The notes below the pieces were generated by a model that had not been told where the DNA came from, searched no databases, and worked only from the letters and a program-made list of their open reading frames with translations. Positions 3,001 to 41,077 of a stretch of 42,774 bases of DNA are shown one piece after another. The DNA is from a virus, in IMG/VR virus record IMGVR_UViG_3300043548_000646, positions 1 to 42,774 of that record; one strand, written 5' to 3'. Both the position numbers and the translations under genes were made by a program. Every line of letters begins with the position of its first letter. The first letter of the stretch is position 1.

Positions 3001-5885
3001 CCAACACTTCCGGTAAAGCCGGTAGTTCCTTGCGACCCACTGAAGCCGATACTCCCAGTAAAGCCTGTAGTACCTTGACTACCTGTGAACCCCAGCGACC
3101 CTGTGAATCCTGTAGTTCCTTGTGACCCTGTAAATCCAGAATCGCCTTTGCTACCAGTGAATCCAACAGAACCTGTAAAGCCTGTGGTTCCTTGTGACCC
3201 AGTGAATCCGATTGAACCTGTAAATCCAGAATCGCCTTTGCTACCAGTGAACCCGATACTTCCTGTGAAGCCTGCGGTTCCTTGTGACCCAGTGAATCCG
3301 ATTGAACCAGTAAATCCAACAGAACCTGCGAAACCAGTTGTTCCTTGTGACCCAGTGAATCCGATTGAACCAGTAAATCCAACATCGCCTTTGCTACCAG
3401 TAAATCCAGAATCGCCTTTGCTACCAGTAAAGCCTATTGAGCCTGTGAAGCCAGTAGTTCCTTGTGACCCAGTGAAGCCTACACTTCCTACGAAGCCAGT
3501 AGTTCCTTGTGACCCAGTGAAGCCGATACTTCCTGAGAAACCAGTAGTACCTTGCGAGCCTGTGAAACCAACACTACCCGTGAAGCCAGTAGTTCCTTGC
3601 GACCCAGTGAAGCCGATGCTACCTGTGAATCCTTGATTACCTTGACTGCCTGTAAACCCAACATCACCTTGAGAGCCAGAAAATCCAATACTTCCTGTGA
3701 AGCCAACACTTCCAGTGAATCCAATATCACCTTGACTGCCTGTAAACCCAACATCACCTTGAGAGCCAGAAAATCCAATACTTCCTGTGAAGCCAACACT
3801 TCCAGTGAATCCAATATCACCTTTACTTCCAGAAAATCCAATACTTCCTGTGAAGCCTGTAGTACCTTGACTTCCAGTGAAGCCAGTAGTTCCTTGCGAA
3901 CCAGTGAACCCGATACTTCCTGTGAAACCTGCGGTTCCTTGAGAACCTGTGAAGCCAACACTTCCAGTGAATCCAATATCACCTTTACTTCCAGTGAAAC
4001 CTGTGGTTCCTTGTGAGCCTACAAAACCAATACTTCCAGTAAAGCCTGTAGTACCTTGACTTCCAGTGAATCCTAATGAACCAGCAAAGCCTGTGGTTCC
4101 TTGCGACCCAGTGAAGCCGATGCTACCGGTGAATCCTGTATCTCCCTTACTACCAGTGAAGCCTACAGAGCCACTGAAGCCAGTGATTCCCTGTGAGCCT
4201 GTGAACCCGATACTTCCTGTGAAGCCTGTGGTTCCTTGTGACCCAGTGAAGCCGATGCTACCGGTGAATCCTACACTACCGGTGAAGCCAACACCACCTT
4301 GACTACCTGTAAACCCAGAACCTTGACTTCCAGTGAATCCTGAACCACCTTGACTACCAACAAAACCGCGACTACCGGTATAACCTAAAGCACTACTGGC
4401 GGCATCAACCCATTGAGTACTGGTGCCGTCATTGTAATAAATTTTCAGTTGTCCAGATTCTTCGTCCCACCATAAATCACCATCACTAGGAGTTTCTGGG
4501 GGTGTGGATGAAGTTGAAACAGATGCACCGCCACCGCCGCCACCTGAACCTGTATAACCAACAGCACCTTGACTACCCGTGAAACCACTGGTACCCGCAG
4601 AACCTTGTGAGCCTGTGAAGCCTTGAGCACCATCAGTTACAGTTGGATCCGCAAACAACACCCATTGACTACTAGTACCATCATTATAATAGAAATAGGA
4701 TTTACCAGAAGTTGAATCAAACCAAATAGTTCCTGTGTTTGGTAATACTGGAGGAGTTGTAGATGCAACAACCGTGTATTGTGACCCTGTGTATCCAAGA
4801 CTTCCTGTAAATCCAGTAACACCAAAGGATCCGGTGAAACCGACACTTCCTGTGAAGCCAATTTCACCTTTGCTACCATCAAAGCCTGTGGCACCTTGTG
4901 AACCAGTGAAGCCGATATCACCTTGACTACCTGTGAAGCCTAAAGAACCTGTGAAGCCTAAAGAACCTGTGAAGCCAGTACTACCCTGACTTCCCACATA
5001 ACCAGTGTCACCACGGTCACCTGTTCGAGCGAACGTGATGATGATGTCCAAGTTGTTGGTGAATGATGTGGAACCAGAAAGCCAAGATATTGGAACTGCA
5101 AAATAATTACTGTATTCAGTGTGCGCGCCCGTGATAGCGAACATGGCAAAATTGTTCGTATCAGTCTTTTCTGTGATTGTGAAATGTCCTTTAATTGATG
5201 ATGTAGAATCATCAATGGTTTGGAGATAATTGAAAACAGAAATTGCTGCATCATCAAACTGATTGATGTAGAGAACTGACGATGTTGAAAGGTCAGTAGA
5301 ATTTAAACGTAACTTTCCAGAACCAGGATCAGAATTTGTGGTACTAGTATCAAACGTGTAATCAAACGCGGCGCCGCCGAAAGTACCTGGGTCACCTTTG
5401 CTACCAGTATAACCTAAATCGCCCTGTGACCCGACAAATCCTGTATCTCCTTGACTACCAGTGAAGCCACGACTTCCTGAAAATCCTATACTGCCAGTGA
5501 AGCCCGTATCTCCTTGACTTCCAGTAAATCCAATAATACCAATACTTCCAGTAAATCCAATAATACCCTGACTGCCAGAATAGCCAATATCTCCTTGACT
5601 TCCAGTATATCCAAGAATTCCCTGCGAACCAGTGAAGCCTGTGGCGCCTTGACTGCCGGTGAAGCCATTATCACCCTTGCTTCCAGTGAAGCCGAGTGAC
5701 CCAGTGAAGCCGGTGCTACCAACTAAACCTGATGAAATTTCTACAATGGATTCTACACCATCGTTTTTCTTGAAGTAAATTTTACCATCATTGGTATTGA
5801 TAGCCAATTCACCCAACTGCAAGTCGGATAATTGCGGAACTTTACCTGGTACAGCAGACCGTTTTATTTTAATCAAATTCGCCAT
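1..5885 (-). CDS. Giant collagen-like tail fibre protein (3' end beyond window)
   Basis: An open frame of 1961 codons runs from ATG at 5885 to the left edge without a stop. The N-terminus (MANLIKIKRS..., with LGELAINTNDGKIYFKK at about aa 27-43) is the usual phage fibre attachment head. Most of the rest is collagen-like Gly-X-Y, dominated by the hexamer G-F-T-G-S-x. Non-collagen islands lie at about aa 167-287, 366-421, 446-502, 1129-1209 and 1466-1591. From about aa 1866 to the edge there is a beta-type domain (PANSFVWLETTA) that usually sits near a fibre C-terminus, so probably little is missing. Collagen-like stretches in phage proteins form trimeric rod segments, so this is probably a long trimeric adsorption fibre. 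A T4-type late promoter lies about 80 bp upstream. The glycosyltransferase gene diverges from it. The identity as a collagen-like fibre is firm; the receptor is unknown. Confidence 0.9.
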   Translation of the reverse strand, partial: MANLIKIKRSAVPGKVPQLSDLQLGELAINTNDGKIYFKKNDGVESIVEISSGLVGSTGFTGSLGFTGSKGDNGFTGSQGATGFTGSQGILGYTGSQGDIGYSGSQGIIGFTGSIGIIGFTGSQGDTGFTGSIGFSGSRGFTGSQGDTGFVGSQGDLGYTGSKGDPGTFGGAAFDYTFDTSTTNSDPGSGKLRLNSTDLSTSSVLYINQFDDAAISVFNYLQTIDDSTSSIKGHFTITEKTDTNNFAMFAITGAHTEYSNYFAVPISWLSGSTSFTNNLDIIITFARTGDRGDTGYVGSQGSTGFTGSLGFTGSLGFTGSQGDIGFTGSQGATGFDGSKGEIGFTGSVGFTGSFGVTGFTGSLGYTGSQYTVVASTTPPVLPNTGTIWFDSTSGKSYFYYNDGTSSQWVLFADPTVTDGAQGFTGSQGSAGTSGFTGSQGAVGYTGSGGGGGGASVSTSSTPPETPSDGDLWWDEESGQLKIYYNDGTSTQWVDAASSALGYTGSRGFVGSQGGSGFTGSQGSGFTGSQGGVGFTGSVGFTGSIGFTGSQGTTGFTGSIGFTGSQGITGFSGSVGFTGSKGDTGFTGSIGFTGSQGTTGFAGSLGFTGSQGTTGFTGSIGFVGSQGTTGFTGSKGDIGFTGSVGFTGSQGTAGFTGSIGFTGSQGTTGFTGSQGTTGFTGSIGFSGSKGDIGFTGSVGFTGSIGFSGSQGDVGFTGSQGDIGFTGSVGFTGSIGFSGSQGDVGFTGSQGNQGFTGSIGFTGSQGTTGFTGSVGFTGSQGTTGFSGSIGFTGSQGTTGFVGSVGFTGSQGTTGFTGSIGFTGSKGDSGFTGSKGDVGFTGSIGFTGSQGTTGFAGSVGFTGSIGFTGSQGTAGFTGSIGFTGSKGDSGFTGSIGFTGSQGTTGFTGSVGFTGSKGDSGFTGSQGTTGFTGSLGFTGSQGTTGFTGSIGFSGSQGTTGFTGSVGFIGSKGDSGFTGSIGFAGSQGTTGFSGSVGFSGSVGFTGSQGTIGFTGSIGFTGSKGDVGFTGSIGFTGSIGFTGSIGFTGSQGTTGFTGSVGFTGSQGTTGFTGSIGFTGSQGTTGFTGSIGFSGSKGDTGFTGSLGFTGSKGDTGFTGSLGFTGSKGDTGFTGSNGLDGDRYLTSSTTSNSISTGSKTFTVETDLSYSATQAVKIVYDTNNYLEGTVTSYDVGTGSLVVNVITTVGSGTYTSWTVNLSGSVGAQGFTGSQGTTGFVGSQGGAGFTGSVGFTGSIGFTGSQGGSGFTGSIGFTGSQGGSGFTGSIGFTGSQGGSGFTGSIGFTGSQGGAGFTGSQGGPGFAGSVGFTGSVGFTGSVGFTGSQGDTGFTGSQGGTGFTGSVGFTGSLGFTGSDGFTGSVGFTGSQGGTGFTGSQGGTGFTGSVGFTGSVGFTGSIGFTGSQGGTGFTGSIGFTGSVGFTGSIGFTGSQGGTGFTGSIGFTGSVGFTGSLGFTGSYGDRGGLKYQYDNNTGNADPGSGVFRGNNGSIDLVTQFYIDDLDFAADNQANWWLQIDDSTNPVKGYLHLMGNFGATSVSAVYRITSVVDSSGYKTVNVTYISGHTGAIQTGAYFVFNAFRSGDLGFTGSQGVGFTGSQGTTGFTGSIGFTGSQGTTGFTGSIGFTGSQGTTGFTGSIGFTGSQGTTGFTGSIGFTGSQGTTGFTGSIGFTGSQGTTGFTGSIGFTGSQGTTGFTGSIGFTGSQGTTGFTGSIGFTGSQGTTGFTGSVGFTGSVGFTGSVGFTGSQGAQGFTGSIGFTGSQGTTGFTGSVGFTGSQGTTGFTGSIGFTGSQGTTGFTGSVGFTGSEGAGFTGSLGFTGSQGAGFTGSLGFTGSQGAGFTGSLGFTGSQGVGFTGSQGSIAPKSISIMDPTSAEDITMFYTFNAITVSAVEAVVRGSATPSVTLIIRHAPDRNATGTAIIASTAVTNTTTGQAITVTSASIPANSFVWLETTAIGG
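322..447 (-). repeat. Three tandem 42-bp copies in the collagen region
   Basis: Copies begin at about 322, 364 and 406 and are essentially identical. Each encodes 14 residues (GAGFTGSLGFTGSQ). Because 14 is not a multiple of three, every copy carries a Gly-Ala-Gly step that breaks the G-X-Y register. Confidence 0.85.
1989..2159 (-). repeat. Four tandem 45-bp copies in the collagen region
   Basis: Copies begin at about 1989, 2034, 2079 and 2124 and are nearly identical. Each encodes 15 residues, i.e. five in-register triplets of the GFTGSI/GFTGSQ type. This is consistent with recent slippage or unequal recombination. Confidence 0.85.
3641..3820 (-). repeat. 90-bp direct duplication in the collagen region
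   Basis: The segment starting at 3641 is repeated starting at 3731 with almost no change. It equals 30 residues, or ten collagen triplets, so the reading register is kept. It is one of several tandem expansions in this gene. Confidence 0.8.
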
Positions 5886-36024: not shown

Positions 36025-36032
36025 TATTTATA
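36025..36032 (-). promoter_or_regulatory. T4-type late promoter of the main structural operon
   Basis: Exact TATAAATA on the minus strand, 36 bp before ATG 35989 of the gp48-like gene. It overlaps the first base of gene 4 on the other strand. It is the first promoter of the long 48-to-fibre operon. Confidence 0.6.
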
Positions 36033-36484
36033 TGACATATACAAAAGATACGTACAAAGGACGCTTTGTTGCTGAAAATCCTCACAAATATGTCGGGGAT
36101 TCTCAAAACATCATCTATCGCAGTTCCTATGAATTGAAGTTCATGAAATGGTGTGACACCAACGCTTCAGTGTTACGCTGGGCGAGTGAAGAAGTTGTCA
36201 TACCCTACGTGAGTCCGTTAGACAACATGGTGCATCGTTACTTCGTGGATTTTTACATTGAAGTACAAACGAAAGATGGAAAAAAGAAAAAATATCTTGT
36301 GGAAGTGAAACCGTTTCGTTTCACACAGCCGCCGGTGATTCCAAAAAGAAAATCTCCCCGATTCATTTCAGAAGTGAAACAATGGGGAGTGAACAATGCC
36401 AAATGGGACGCAGCTAAGAAGTATGCCAAGACCTATGGATGGGAGTTCATGTTAGTTACTGAGAAGGATTTAGGAAGTTTCTGA
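36032..36484 (+). CDS. 4: Head completion protein gp4
   Basis: 150 aa, the same size as T4 gp4. Shared pattern: KYVGDSQNIIYRSSYELKFM, WCDTNASVLRWASEEVVIPY, HRYFVDFYIE, then YLVEVKPF and a closing KWDAAKKYAKTYGWEF and LVTEKDL. The D...E-x-K arrangement is that of a restriction-endonuclease-like nuclease fold; gp4 is needed to finish DNA-filled heads. It diverges from the gp48-like gene across only 42 bp. A GGGAGTG sequence ends about 11 bp before the ATG, a rather long spacing. Confidence 0.9.
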   Translation: MTYTKDTYKGRFVAENPHKYVGDSQNIIYRSSYELKFMKWCDTNASVLRWASEEVVIPYVSPLDNMVHRYFVDFYIEVQTKDGKKKKYLVEVKPFRFTQPPVIPKRKSPRFISEVKQWGVNNAKWDAAKKYAKTYGWEFMLVTEKDLGSF

Positions 36485-36577: not shown

Positions 36578-37150
36578 ATGGCACAAAACCCCTTCGATAT
36601 TATCAGAAGTCAAGAAACCCCCACTAGTTCATTTCGTTGGTATCAAGAGATGATTAGAAAAGTGGGGCTGGGGTCTGTCCAACCCCAGCGCGTGATGAGA
36701 AGTAACGTTGGTGAGTTTGTCACCAGTGTGTTGCCAGGGCAGATGTACATGTTTTTGTACAATCCAAAGACAGCCGAGAAACTGCCATATTATGATACTG
36801 TACCAGTTGTGTTACCATTCAGAAAAGTTGCTGATGGATTTTATGGGTTGAATTTCCATTATCTTCCTCCTATGCTTCGTATGAGATTGTTAGAACGATT
36901 GATGACTCTTGTGAATAATGAAAAGATGACTGAAACCACACGGGTGAATTTAAGCTGGAAGCTGTTAAACAATGCAGCGAAATTTCCAGGTGTTCATGCT
37001 TGTGTTAAGCGTTATTTGTACAAACAGATGCAATCTAGAATCATGAGAATTTATCCACAAGATTGGAAAAAAACCATTATGCTACCAATTGATAATTTTG
37101 AGAAAGAACCTATAAACGTAGTATTCAACGACTCATGGAGTAAAATGTAA
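36578..37150 (+). CDS. Unknown 190-aa T4-type phage protein
   Basis: The pattern looks familiar from T4-like aquatic phages, but I cannot name a T4 equivalent. Visible features: SSFRWYQEMIRKVGL (about 17-31), PGQMYMFLYNPKTAEKLPYY (about 54-73), VLPFRKVADGFYGLNFHYLP (about 78-97), and a basic helical C-terminal half with CVKRYLYKQMQSRIMRI. There is no signal peptide or membrane segment. It is the first gene of the operon after gp4 and is coupled to the gp54-like gene by a one-base overlap. It probably belongs to tail or head completion; the function is not known to me. Confidence 0.75.
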   Translation: MAQNPFDIIRSQETPTSSFRWYQEMIRKVGLGSVQPQRVMRSNVGEFVTSVLPGQMYMFLYNPKTAEKLPYYDTVPVVLPFRKVADGFYGLNFHYLPPMLRMRLLERLMTLVNNEKMTETTRVNLSWKLLNNAAKFPGVHACVKRYLYKQMQSRIMRIYPQDWKKTIMLPIDNFEKEPINVVFNDSWSKM

Positions 37151-38112
37151 TGGCATCATCTGGCGAATCAATAGATAAAGTAAATCCACCTACTTTAGAA
37201 CAATTTATATCTTTTATAAAAACAACTAATCTATCTAAAATGGAAAGATTTTTTGTTAGTTTTCCTGTTATAGGAGGAGTTGAAAAATCCTTAATGTTAT
37301 TGTGTGAAGAAGCAGCTATTCCAGGAAAAACCATTAACACCAGAACACTGCGTATTAATGGTATGAATGAATATAGAGCAGAATCCATGGATTTCATGGG
37401 AGATAGTATCACTTTACAGTTTTTAATGGATGCTGAATGGAAAGCACGGTATGCAATGGAATATTGGATGGATTTGTGTGTTACAAAGCCAATGGAAGGG
37501 AGAGAAGTAAATTTTTACTCGGACTATGCTTTCGATATTACATTACATGCATTAATGCCTGCAGGAATACCAGGTGAGAAAATAGCCAACTGGAGCCCAA
37601 CACAATCAGACTTCTCTTTACGTAGGGGATTACCGAAATCTTGGCAAGAAGGTAATAAAGGATTACTTCTTAACAAAGCAATAAATGCAGGAAAAAGAAA
37701 AATTGACCAAATTACTAATAAAGCTAAAACACAATTATTCGGAGCAATAGCACCATTAGCAAATCCTTTAATAGAAGCGTTCAGAGACACAGAAAATATT
37801 GTATACAGTATTAAATTAATTGAGTGTTGGCCTAAAAGTATTAATGTGATGCCAGTATCTTGGTCCAATCCAGGTGTTCATAGAATGAATGTCACATTTT
37901 CTTACAAATATTGGGTATCGCATGTTGAATCCATTGATGAAAACGATGATTTTGAAAGTAAAGTAGTTGGCGGTCTTAATAAGAAAGTTGGTGAATTTTT
38001 AGATAAAAATCTTGGTAGTAGAATTCCATCTGTTGCAAATAAATTATCAAGTTTAGGTAACGACTTGAAGGCAAAAGCAATTAGTAAGTTTGGCAAACGT
38101 TTTGGTGGTTAA
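37150..38112 (+). CDS. 54: Baseplate tail-tube initiator, gp54-like
   Basis: 320 aa, exactly the size of T4 gp54. Tail-tube-type pattern: MERFFVSFPVIGGVEKSLML, then CEEAAIPGKTINTRTLRINGM, ITLQFLMDAEWKARYAMEYW, and near the end VYSIKLIECWPKSINVMPVS followed by VTFSYKYWVSHVE. The last 50 residues are a helical tail. Gp54 binds gp48 and starts tail-tube polymerisation. Its ATG overlaps the preceding stop (TAATG), and gp26 follows after a GGAG ribosome site. Gp48 and gp54 share a fold, so the two names could be swapped with the divergent 397-aa protein. Confidence 0.7.
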   Translation: MASSGESIDKVNPPTLEQFISFIKTTNLSKMERFFVSFPVIGGVEKSLMLLCEEAAIPGKTINTRTLRINGMNEYRAESMDFMGDSITLQFLMDAEWKARYAMEYWMDLCVTKPMEGREVNFYSDYAFDITLHALMPAGIPGEKIANWSPTQSDFSLRRGLPKSWQEGNKGLLLNKAINAGKRKIDQITNKAKTQLFGAIAPLANPLIEAFRDTENIVYSIKLIECWPKSINVMPVSWSNPGVHRMNVTFSYKYWVSHVESIDENDDFESKVVGGLNKKVGEFLDKNLGSRIPSVANKLSSLGNDLKAKAISKFGKRFGG

Positions 38113-38131
38113 CATAATTTAGGAGAATAAT

Positions 38132-38833
38132 ATGAATATACCTATGGTGAAGGTCCCAACTTTTTCTATGACACTACCTGTGTCAAAAGAGAAAATTGAT
38201 TTTCGACCTTTTTTAGTGAAAGAAGAAAAATTGTTGATTTTAGCAAACGAAGCATCAGACACAGAATCAGCATTAAAAGCTATTGGTGAAGTTGTTGAGA
38301 GTTGTACCAACGGTAAAGTTCAACTTCACAAACATTGTTTAGCGGATATGCAATATGCATTTCTTCAAATACGAGGTAAGTCTGTAGGACCTGAGATTAA
38401 CTTCTATTTAATTTGTGGTGATTGTGGGCATCGTCATCTTTCAACAATTTCTGTTGAAGATTTCGACATCAAGTTACCAAAAAAACTTGAAACTGTTTTT
38501 GCAATTGATGGCGATATTCGTGTGGAAATGAAGTTCCCTGGGTTGGCACATTACACAAAATTATTTGATGAACAAACAGATGAAGCTGTGTTTGATGTGG
38601 TTGCAGATTGTATAGTGAAGATTTTCAATGATGAGGAAGTGTTTGAAAACACCAAAGATACAAAAAATGAAGTGCGTGTGTTTTTAGATAATTTAACACC
38701 TGAACAGTTTGAAAAATTTGAAGATTTCTTTGTGAACATGCCAGTCTTATATAAAGAATTATCATTCACATGTACAAGTTGCAGTAAACAAAACAGTTTA
38801 ATTGTGGATAGTATACAAAATTTTTTCGAATAA
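38132..38833 (+). CDS. 26: Baseplate hub/assembly protein gp26
   Basis: 233 aa (T4 gp26 has 208). It fits the T4 baseplate hub family: an N-terminal PVSKEKIDFRPFLVKEEKLL, then a central CGDCGHRH and a C-terminal CTSCSK, two Cys pairs that could bind zinc. In T4, gp26 is needed to assemble the hub but is hard to find in the mature baseplate, so it may be a chaperone. The gene ends in AAT TTT TTC GAA TAA, containing in-register slippery heptamers, and the following small ORF is in the -1 frame. It lies directly upstream of the tape-measure gene. Confidence 0.85.
   Translation: MNIPMVKVPTFSMTLPVSKEKIDFRPFLVKEEKLLILANEASDTESALKAIGEVVESCTNGKVQLHKHCLADMQYAFLQIRGKSVGPEINFYLICGDCGHRHLSTISVEDFDIKLPKKLETVFAIDGDIRVEMKFPGLAHYTKLFDEQTDEAVFDVVADCIVKIFNDEEVFENTKDTKNEVRVFLDNLTPEQFEKFEDFFVNMPVLYKELSFTCTSCSKQNSLIVDSIQNFFE
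38818..38827 (+). promoter_or_regulatory. Candidate -1 ribosomal frameshift site at the end of gene 26
   Basis: Bases 38818-38824 (A AAT TTT) and 38821-38827 (T TTT TTC) both fit the X XXY YYZ slippery pattern in the gene 26 frame. A -1 slip here skips the TAA at 38831 and continues through the small ORF to 39009. No strong downstream stem-loop is evident by eye. Confidence 0.5.
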
Positions 38834-38850
38834 CTCTTTCTCATGATAAC

Positions 38851-39009
38851 ATGGTGAATTTTTACAAGACGAATTTTTTGTTGATGCAACTTCACAAATA
38901 TTCGTTGAGTGAAATAGAAAATATGATGCCGTGGGAAAGAGAAATTTACATAGCAATGTTACTACAACACTTAGAGAAAAAGAACAACGAACAGGCAAAC
39001 AATGGCTAA
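38851..39009 (+). CDS. 52-aa gp51/tail-assembly-chaperone-like small ORF
   Basis: ATG 38851 to TAA 39007-39009 gives 52 residues with the motif LHKYSLSEIENMMPWEREIY and a charged end (HLEKKNNEQANNG). This SLSEIE-MPWER pattern is typical of the short second product of tail-assembly chaperone pairs and of proteins labelled gp51 in aquatic T4-like phages. No Shine-Dalgarno sequence precedes the ATG. The frame is open upstream to 38812, so it could instead be the C-terminal extension of gp26 made by -1 frameshifting, giving a 292-aa fusion. It overlaps the tape-measure start by 8 bp. Confidence 0.7.
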   Translation: MVNFYKTNFLLMQLHKYSLSEIENMMPWEREIYIAMLLQHLEKKNNEQANNG

Positions 39010-41077
39010 TAAAAGCGTCTCCGCAAAAAGAATACGAAAGAGTTTCGTTCAAAAAAACATGTTCGATACTGAAGAAGCAGCAACTGCCAATGTGGAATCT
39101 GCACAAGAATTGGCAAATGTTGCCATCAGCATTGAAACATTGACAGAAAATCAAGAAAGAATTTTTCAGGACATGTTGGAAGCACTTCAAGAAATTCCTG
39201 ATAGTGTTCGTGAGCGTGAGCGCCAATCTGAAAAATTATTAGACAAGATTTTTGATGCCATCTTTGAACTGGAAAAAAGTTTAGAAACTGAAACGGATCC
39301 GGAAAAGAGAAAAGTATTAGAAGCGGGAATCAGCACCTTGAAAGGTAAAGGTGCTGATATGTTTAAAACCACTGGATATAATCAGCGAGATAATCGTCCC
39401 GCTTCATTGGGAGAAAGTATTGCAAGTCATTATTTTGGTGTTGATCCTGCGTTAAAAAGACAACATGGGTTTGTGAAAGGATTTGGAAAAGCATTAGTTC
39501 GTGACACTAAGAAGGCGTTTGGAATATCTTCCAGACCTAACAAAGTATCATTTGATGAAATGCTCGAAAGTAAGAAAATGATTGCAAATTCATCACGCAG
39601 CATTTCTGAAATTAGTGAGTCAACCCGTCAAAAAAGAATTGCTGATAGTTTAACTGAAGAAGTGGCAGAAGAACCGAAATATACAGCAGATTTAGCACCT
39701 GATTTTGCTGCAGCTGCCAATAAGTTTGATGAACAATTTGGAGTACCGAAACAACGGGGAAGAAAATCATCAGGCACAGGTTCTGCGAAACTATCAAAGG
39801 AACGAATGAAAAGTGTTTCTGGAGGAGCTGATTATCAAACGGCATCCTTGAAACTCTTGAAAGATATTGCACAGAACACAAAAAATCAATTAGAACTGTT
39901 ACGAGATAATTTAGGCGCAGATAAGAATGAAAATGTGTCCCGAGGAACAGTTGCTGCAGGTGCTGTAGCTGGGGCTGCTGCAGCAAAAACAACACCTAAA
40001 TTTGCCAGTTCTGGTACTGATTATGATGACCCTAATCGTGAAGTAACAAAAGAGGAAGGTGGCGGAACTGACGAAGGAGGTTTAGCTGGAGGAATTGGCG
40101 GATTATTACCTGTAGCAGGCGGAGCAATAGCAGGGTTAGGAGCAGCACTTCTTGGTAAAGGAAAACAATTATTTAGCAGATTAAATCCATTTAACAGAAC
40201 AAGCGCAGGAGGACCATCTGCTGCACCTAATGCAAGAAATGCTGCCAATTTAGCTTCTGATTCGCCAGCAACAGCATTAAGAACAGCTAACAACGTAGCA
40301 CCTAATGCTCCAGCAACAGCATTAAGAACTGCGGGTGCAGGGGTTCCACCAGTAACACCCCCTCCACGAGCTGCAGGAGGTTTTTTCAGTAATCTTTCTA
40401 ATAAAGTAAAAACTAAAATACCTGCAGGATTGACTAGCAGAGTTGCAAGTTTGCGTGGGGGTTTAAGTGGAAGATTAGGTGGTCTTGCACGTGGGGGTGC
40501 AGCCAGAGTTGCAGGTAGAGGAATTCTTGGTAGATTTGGAAAAGTAGGACTAAAAAGTGTATTGAAGAAAATTCCTTTGGTTGGCGCAGTTGCTGGTTTA
40601 GGATTTGGTGCATCTCGGTTATTAACCGGTGACTGGAAAGGGGCGCTCGGTGAAGTGGCATCTGGGGCAGCGGGCAGTATACCTGGAATTGGTACCGCAG
40701 CAAGCATGGGAATTGATGCTGCTATGGCAGCACGTGATGCCGGCATGTTTGAAGGGGGAGAAGCGCCTCCTGAAGCCATGGAAGATATGCCTATAACACC
40801 AGGCATAGAACCAGTACCTCAGGCACAAATACCTGCCACGGCTACAATGGCTGCAAATCCTCAATCTGGTAGAGTTCCCGTGGCGAATGCACTAGAACAA
40901 GCTACCAATCGCCAACCACAAGCAGCTCCGCCCATAATTAATAACATTACTAATAATAATGTTGCTCCTCAAGGAGGCGGCGGTGGTCAACAAACAGTTG
41001 TGACCTCAGTTAGCATTCGTGATGTGCATAGTAGTTACATGAGGTTCCAAGAACGAAGAATGTCACGGGTACTATAA
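39002..41077 (+). CDS. 29: gp29-like tail tape-measure/baseplate hub protein
   Basis: 691 aa (T4 gp29 has 590). The N-terminal third is helical and charged (ENQERIFQDMLEALQEI and so on). The centre (about 325-400 and 480-590) is rich in Ala and Gly with hydrophobic helices such as GGAIAGLGAALLGKGKQLF and LVGAVAGLGFGASRLL. The end is a Pro/Asn/Gly linker, then VTSVSIRDVHSSYMRF. Such a protein runs through the tail tube and sets its length, and may enter the host membrane. The start overlaps the 52-aa ORF by 8 bp. The position after gp26 supports gp29; sequence similarity to T4 is low. Confidence 0.75.
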   Translation: MANKSVSAKRIRKSFVQKNMFDTEEAATANVESAQELANVAISIETLTENQERIFQDMLEALQEIPDSVRERERQSEKLLDKIFDAIFELEKSLETETDPEKRKVLEAGISTLKGKGADMFKTTGYNQRDNRPASLGESIASHYFGVDPALKRQHGFVKGFGKALVRDTKKAFGISSRPNKVSFDEMLESKKMIANSSRSISEISESTRQKRIADSLTEEVAEEPKYTADLAPDFAAAANKFDEQFGVPKQRGRKSSGTGSAKLSKERMKSVSGGADYQTASLKLLKDIAQNTKNQLELLRDNLGADKNENVSRGTVAAGAVAGAAAAKTTPKFASSGTDYDDPNREVTKEEGGGTDEGGLAGGIGGLLPVAGGAIAGLGAALLGKGKQLFSRLNPFNRTSAGGPSAAPNARNAANLASDSPATALRTANNVAPNAPATALRTAGAGVPPVTPPPRAAGGFFSNLSNKVKTKIPAGLTSRVASLRGGLSGRLGGLARGGAARVAGRGILGRFGKVGLKSVLKKIPLVGAVAGLGFGASRLLTGDWKGALGEVASGAAGSIPGIGTAASMGIDAAMAARDAGMFEGGEAPPEAMEDMPITPGIEPVPQAQIPATATMAANPQSGRVPVANALEQATNRQPQAAPPIINNITNNNVAPQGGGGGQQTVVTSVSIRDVHSSYMRFQERRMSRVL

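Follow-up and report, generated by a model that had tools for sequence, protein, structure and literature searches.

In phage lambda, gpG and gpGT are a short form and a rarer -1 extension made near the end of the first open reading frame (ORF), ahead of a long gene. In 2016, shifts of the G/GT type were termed general 'except T4' (PMC5009743). According to PMC10885494 and PMC12846349, tail assembly chaperones of T4-like phages were identified by Vladimirov, Gautam & Davidson in 2022; the former, citing that work, describes some T4-like phages in which a longer fusion is encoded apart from a short gene, and the latter attributes to it the poly-T slippery sites of T4-like genes. As far as these two citing papers convey it, the idea of a frameshifted T4-like chaperone is already published and not new, and the original prediction for the locus described here, made from its sequence, overstated how new such a shift is for T4-type phages. 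A poly-T -1 shift into an unbroken -1 frame is also found at the end of the short chaperone gene of Vandenendeviridae and Andersonviridae (PMC12846349). Outside phages, the frameshift signal of E. coli dnaX combines a Shine-Dalgarno (SD)-like element, the heptamer A6G and a downstream structure. As to gp51, Sullivan et al. 2010 (PMC3037559) reported that the cyanophage protein is short of ~200 N-terminal residues and that phage Aeh1 is without it.

We analyzed a stretch of viral DNA of 42,774 nucleotides (IMG/VR record IMGVR_UViG_3300043548_000646; hereafter the window). Genes 26 and 51 of the window are very likely a single tail assembly chaperone gene, in which the gp51 domain is reached by a -1 shift. 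The layout is that of gpG/gpGT, with a short form, a -1 extension that branches off close to where the first ORF ends, and a long gene, possibly the tape measure, behind it. However, no sequence relation to gpG/gpGT was found (the Pfam scan matched PF12322 only), the slippery site is T TTT TTC, and the genes belong to a baseplate cluster of the T4 type, where their annotation is that of hub assembly proteins. The two protein families are those of the T4-like chaperones gp26 and gp51, as Vladimirov et al. are cited; in T4 the two forms are encoded by separate, divergent genes, whereas the window has one gene and a shift. Compared with Vandenendeviridae and Andersonviridae, the gene cluster is a different one, and the GTTTTT motif of these phages is shorter.

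Window gp26 matched the Pfam profile PF12322 (T4_baseplate) over residues 9-233 (E=2.6e-49, better than the curated cut-off) and the PHROG profile phrog_150 (E=1.8e-49). With the profile covering the whole protein, it belongs to the T4 gp26 family. An AlphaFold2 model, built on an alignment of the window and IMG/VR rows only, had a pLDDT of 90.6. Foldseek found no match for gp26 in the PDB at E<=0.001, so membership in a structural chaperone family is not supported by fold; named BFVD matches of the model were mostly gp26-type or uncharacterised baseplate proteins.

The 3' end of gene 26 reads CAA AAT TTT TTC GAA TAA. Direct reading confirmed that, as had been predicted, it holds two overlapping in-register heptamers near the stop, and that the -1 frame, after a TAG stop at 38809-38811, stays open over 38812-39009. 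The window thus has an in-register X XXY YYZ heptamer overlapping an open -1 frame, as expected of programmed -1 frameshifting. The -1 frame at 38812-39006 matched phrog_634 (E=9.7e-26), identifying it as a member of the gp51 family, and also matched positions 230-278 of phrog_150 (E=1.5e-9). A slip is predicted to yield a product of 232 + 60 = 292 amino acids, the length originally proposed, with the junction sequence IQNFFRITLSHD. Among the 34 ORFs of at least 130 amino acids on both strands of the window, gene 26 was the only one with this layout, scored as an in-register slippery heptamer among the last 12 codons together with a -1 frame that is open and extends the protein by at least 40 amino acids. 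A search of window positions 38700-39100 against Rfam gave no match.

Table 1. Features of the gene 26/51 region (window coordinates)
Feature	Position	Strand	Remarks
Upstream gene, tail tube / gp54-like	37150-38112	+	phrog_45, E=1.6e-23
AGGAG ribosome-binding site of gene 26	38121-38125	+	TTAGGAGAATAAT ahead of ATG 38132
Gene 26, short product (TAC-N / gpG-like)	38132-38833	+	233 aa; PF12322, phrog_150
Position of the relatives' SD-like stimulator	38801-38818	+	GTGGAT in the window; weak, -3.1 kcal/mol
Overlapping heptamer A AAT TTT	38818-38824	+	In register; not conserved, probably incidental
Slippery heptamer T TTT TTC, conserved -1 shift site	38821-38827	+	In 0-frame register
-1 extension (gp51 / T-like domain)	38827-39009	+	60 codons after slip, plus stop
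0-frame stop TAA	38831-38833	+	One codon past heptamer T TTT TTC
ATG sometimes used as gp51 start	38851-38853	+	Inside conserved -1 peptide
Next gene, tape measure candidate by position only	39002-41077	+	691 aa; overlaps gp51 stop

In the mechanism we propose, most ribosomes would stop at TAA 38831 and release the short form, gp26 (233 amino acids). In a minority, the two Phe-tRNAs paired with TTT TTC in the P and A sites would slip back by one base to pair with TTT TTT, and these ribosomes would bypass the stop and read 60 more codons to complete the 292-residue gp26-gp51 fusion. Lambda gpG/gpGT suggests by analogy that the two forms may coat the tape measure and that the extension may serve to recruit tail-tube subunits. 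What we infer is that the shift takes place in the window phage, how efficient it is, and that its products act as chaperones. In E. coli, the best shift motifs have cognate ZZN to ZZZ re-pairing in the A site (PMC4066793), and re-pairing from TTC to TTT fits this rule for efficient bacterial motifs.

To follow the site in relatives, IMG/VR was scanned with gp26 alone. The single window sequence as query returned no relatives, and an alignment as query returned 80 loci. All 80 had T TTT TTC/T/A in register together with an open -1 frame, which reached the gp51 domain in 76; in the other 4 it was cut by the contig end. Among the first 13 loci (the window and twelve isolates), 11 had T TTT TTC/T no more than two codons away from the stop of gene 26, as well as gp51 in the -1 frame; the two without the heptamer are Ackermannviridae. 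In a set of IMG/VR loci and isolates picked partly by hand, all 97 gene 26 homologues examined outside Ackermannviridae carried an in-register T TTT TTN, with gp51 lying in the -1 frame. The site was also found in Kyanoviridae, Pootjesviridae, Emdodecavirus and several Straboviridae (PX29, 65, CC2, KVP40-like, Aeh1, S13 and VmeM-32). The comparison of relatives that had been proposed as a check therefore came out in favor of the shift, with Aeh1, S13 and VmeM-32 in agreement. A conserved site together with conserved -1 coding, as expected of programmed -1 frameshifting, was thus found across relatives, and judging from these sequences the shift site appears to have been kept in most of the T4 superfamily.

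Conservation extended to the wobble level. In 53 clusters at <60% identity, the wobble base ahead of the T run was always T (log10 P = -13.1) and the first Phe codon was always TTT (log10 P = -10.4), values that were computed against each gene's own codon use and overstate independence because the clusters share ancestry. Three loci (L055, L059 and L089) kept the run as T TTT TTA, though the residue turns from Phe to Leu. In L091 (around 3160-3220), the 0-frame stop lies nine codons later than in its relatives, and the heptamer and the -1 frame are still kept. The original prediction had named both heptamers; T TTT TTC is the one that stood, while A AAT TTT, present in about 7 of the 97 loci, was rejected as a shift site and regarded as incidental. 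A +1 shift was rejected as well, the +1 frames being mostly short and without a gp51 domain.

In Ackermannviridae and Vibrio K362 (L008 3151-3438, L011 3229-3402, L095, L096, L104 and L106), a gp51-like -1 frame was kept. These loci have no heptamer, and ATT TTC, CTT TTC or CTT TTT is found ahead of the stop. Perhaps they slip on a T_TTY tetramer, to which the GTTTTT motif of Vandenendeviridae and Andersonviridae is closer.

Like dnaX, many relatives combine an SD-like element, a heptamer and downstream structure. The SD-like element, GAGGG, lies about 9 nucleotides upstream of the heptamer, with a mean energy of -6.56 compared to -4.84 under synonymous resampling (p=3e-7). The Glu of the upstream LEG motif was GAG at 25:5, compared to 308:863 elsewhere (p=2e-10). 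Thus, an internal SD-like element is selected in many relatives. The 60 nucleotides 3' of the site folded with a mean z of -1.68 (control windows, -0.1 to -0.76); RNAalifold predicted no stem common to the relatives downstream of the site. In contrast to dnaX, the heptamer of the window is U6C, with a weak SD-like element upstream and a weak stem: the downstream fold had a z of about 0 at 40-60 nucleotides, reaching -2.1 only at 80 nucleotides.

Database annotation treats gp51 as a separate short gene. It would then have a start of its own, ATG 38851 or a later one, used perhaps through translational coupling or by reinitiation past the gene 26 stop, with the T run a by-product of two Phe codons, and in some relatives the ATG does have a fair SD-like sequence (e.g. 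-8.8 in L035 and L072). In the window, ATG 38851 has no Shine-Dalgarno sequence (anti-SD energy +0.6 kcal/mol), as originally noted. Moreover, start positions were not conserved among relatives. In 21 loci the -1 frame held no ATG, GTG or TTG between the slip and codon 20, and Aeh1 and S13 likewise had no -1 start codon ahead of the conserved peptide. This peptide, FFRI-LSHD-LENYYKTNF (~20 codons), lies 5' of the annotated type of start and is conserved in the -1 frame of the start-less loci, so that only a shift can make it there. Over the start-less stretch, non-redundant loci had an amino-acid identity of 0.54 and codon-position identities of 0.61/0.70/0.42, with position 3 varying most; the -1 peptide is under coding constraint, with a purifying pattern. 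A separate gene also leaves the wobble-level conservation of the T run unexplained, and T4 gp51 carries a 26-like domain fused in frame. We therefore consider independent initiation of gp51 improbable.

Slippage of RNA polymerase on the T run, adding one extra U, would yield the same protein as a ribosomal shift, and homopolymer runs are involved in both. With usually just six Ts before a C, G or A, however, the run is short for transcriptional slippage to be efficient. Selection acts on the register, and the element selected upstream in relatives is an SD-like one that acts on ribosomes; polymerase slippage is improbable as well. Homopolymers are also prone to sequencing error, and gp26 and gp51 might in truth share one frame, or gp51 might be the relic of a decayed gene. 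Against this, the frame relation is the same in isolates that many different groups sequenced and in 80 independent contigs, and the -1 frame shows a purifying pattern. The comparison has already refuted both readings, leaving them a negligible probability, and a ribosomal -1 shift at T TTT TTC is the reading we retain.

In T4, genes 26 and 51 are separate and divergent. Residues 1-201 of T4 gp51 matched PF12322 (E=3.9e-52), and the protein aligned end to end with the window fusion, including the T domain and without a gap at the junction. T4 gp26 is the counterpart of the short form, and its gene ends in GAG TTC TTT GAG, without a heptamer. By sequence, short and long forms with a common N domain are thus present, the fusion corresponding to T4 gp51 and the short form to T4 gp26. 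T4 itself does not use the shift, its gp51 being the in-frame equivalent of the fusion. Phi1 and Aes508 are arranged like T4.

On balance we favor the view, drawn from distribution only, that the -1 shift making both chaperone forms is ancestral in the whole T4 superfamily, many lineages having a dnaX-like three-part signal (GAGGG, 9 nucleotides, T TTT TTN, stop, stem). A Straboviridae sub-lineage including T4 would have swapped the shift for gene duplication and inversion, and in Ackermannviridae the heptamer would have decayed into a T_TTY tetramer, with the -1 gene kept. Replacement of a recoding event by gene duplication becomes testable within one phage family.

The shift explains the oddity reported in PMC3037559: the ~200 residues missing from marine gp51 are gene 26, joined by the shift. 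Testing the prediction for Aeh1 turned up T TTT TTC and, in the -1 frame, 69 codons that include the gp51 domain. Thus, the gp51 reported missing from Aeh1 sits in the -1 frame. The 'baseplate hub assembly catalyst' of the sampled cyanophage records would then be a fragment with an arbitrary start, for which a joined CDS is due.

In records L002, L003, L012, L013, L107 and L108, gp51 starts were arbitrary or gp51 was unannotated (S-H9-1, Aeh1 and S13). None of the sampled records gave gp51 as a joined CDS.

The best profile matches of the 691-residue ORF that follows were PHROGs named peptidase and endolysin, covering only ~residues 424-586. The PHROG named peptidase includes the P-HM1 gene that comes after gp51, so these names may be wrong. 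BLASTP of the ORF against the putative tape measure of HTVC008M found no significant similarity. Further upstream in the window (36032-36484), a gp4-like head completion protein matched the Tn7 TnsA-like endonuclease N-terminal domain (PF08722, E=1.4e-21).
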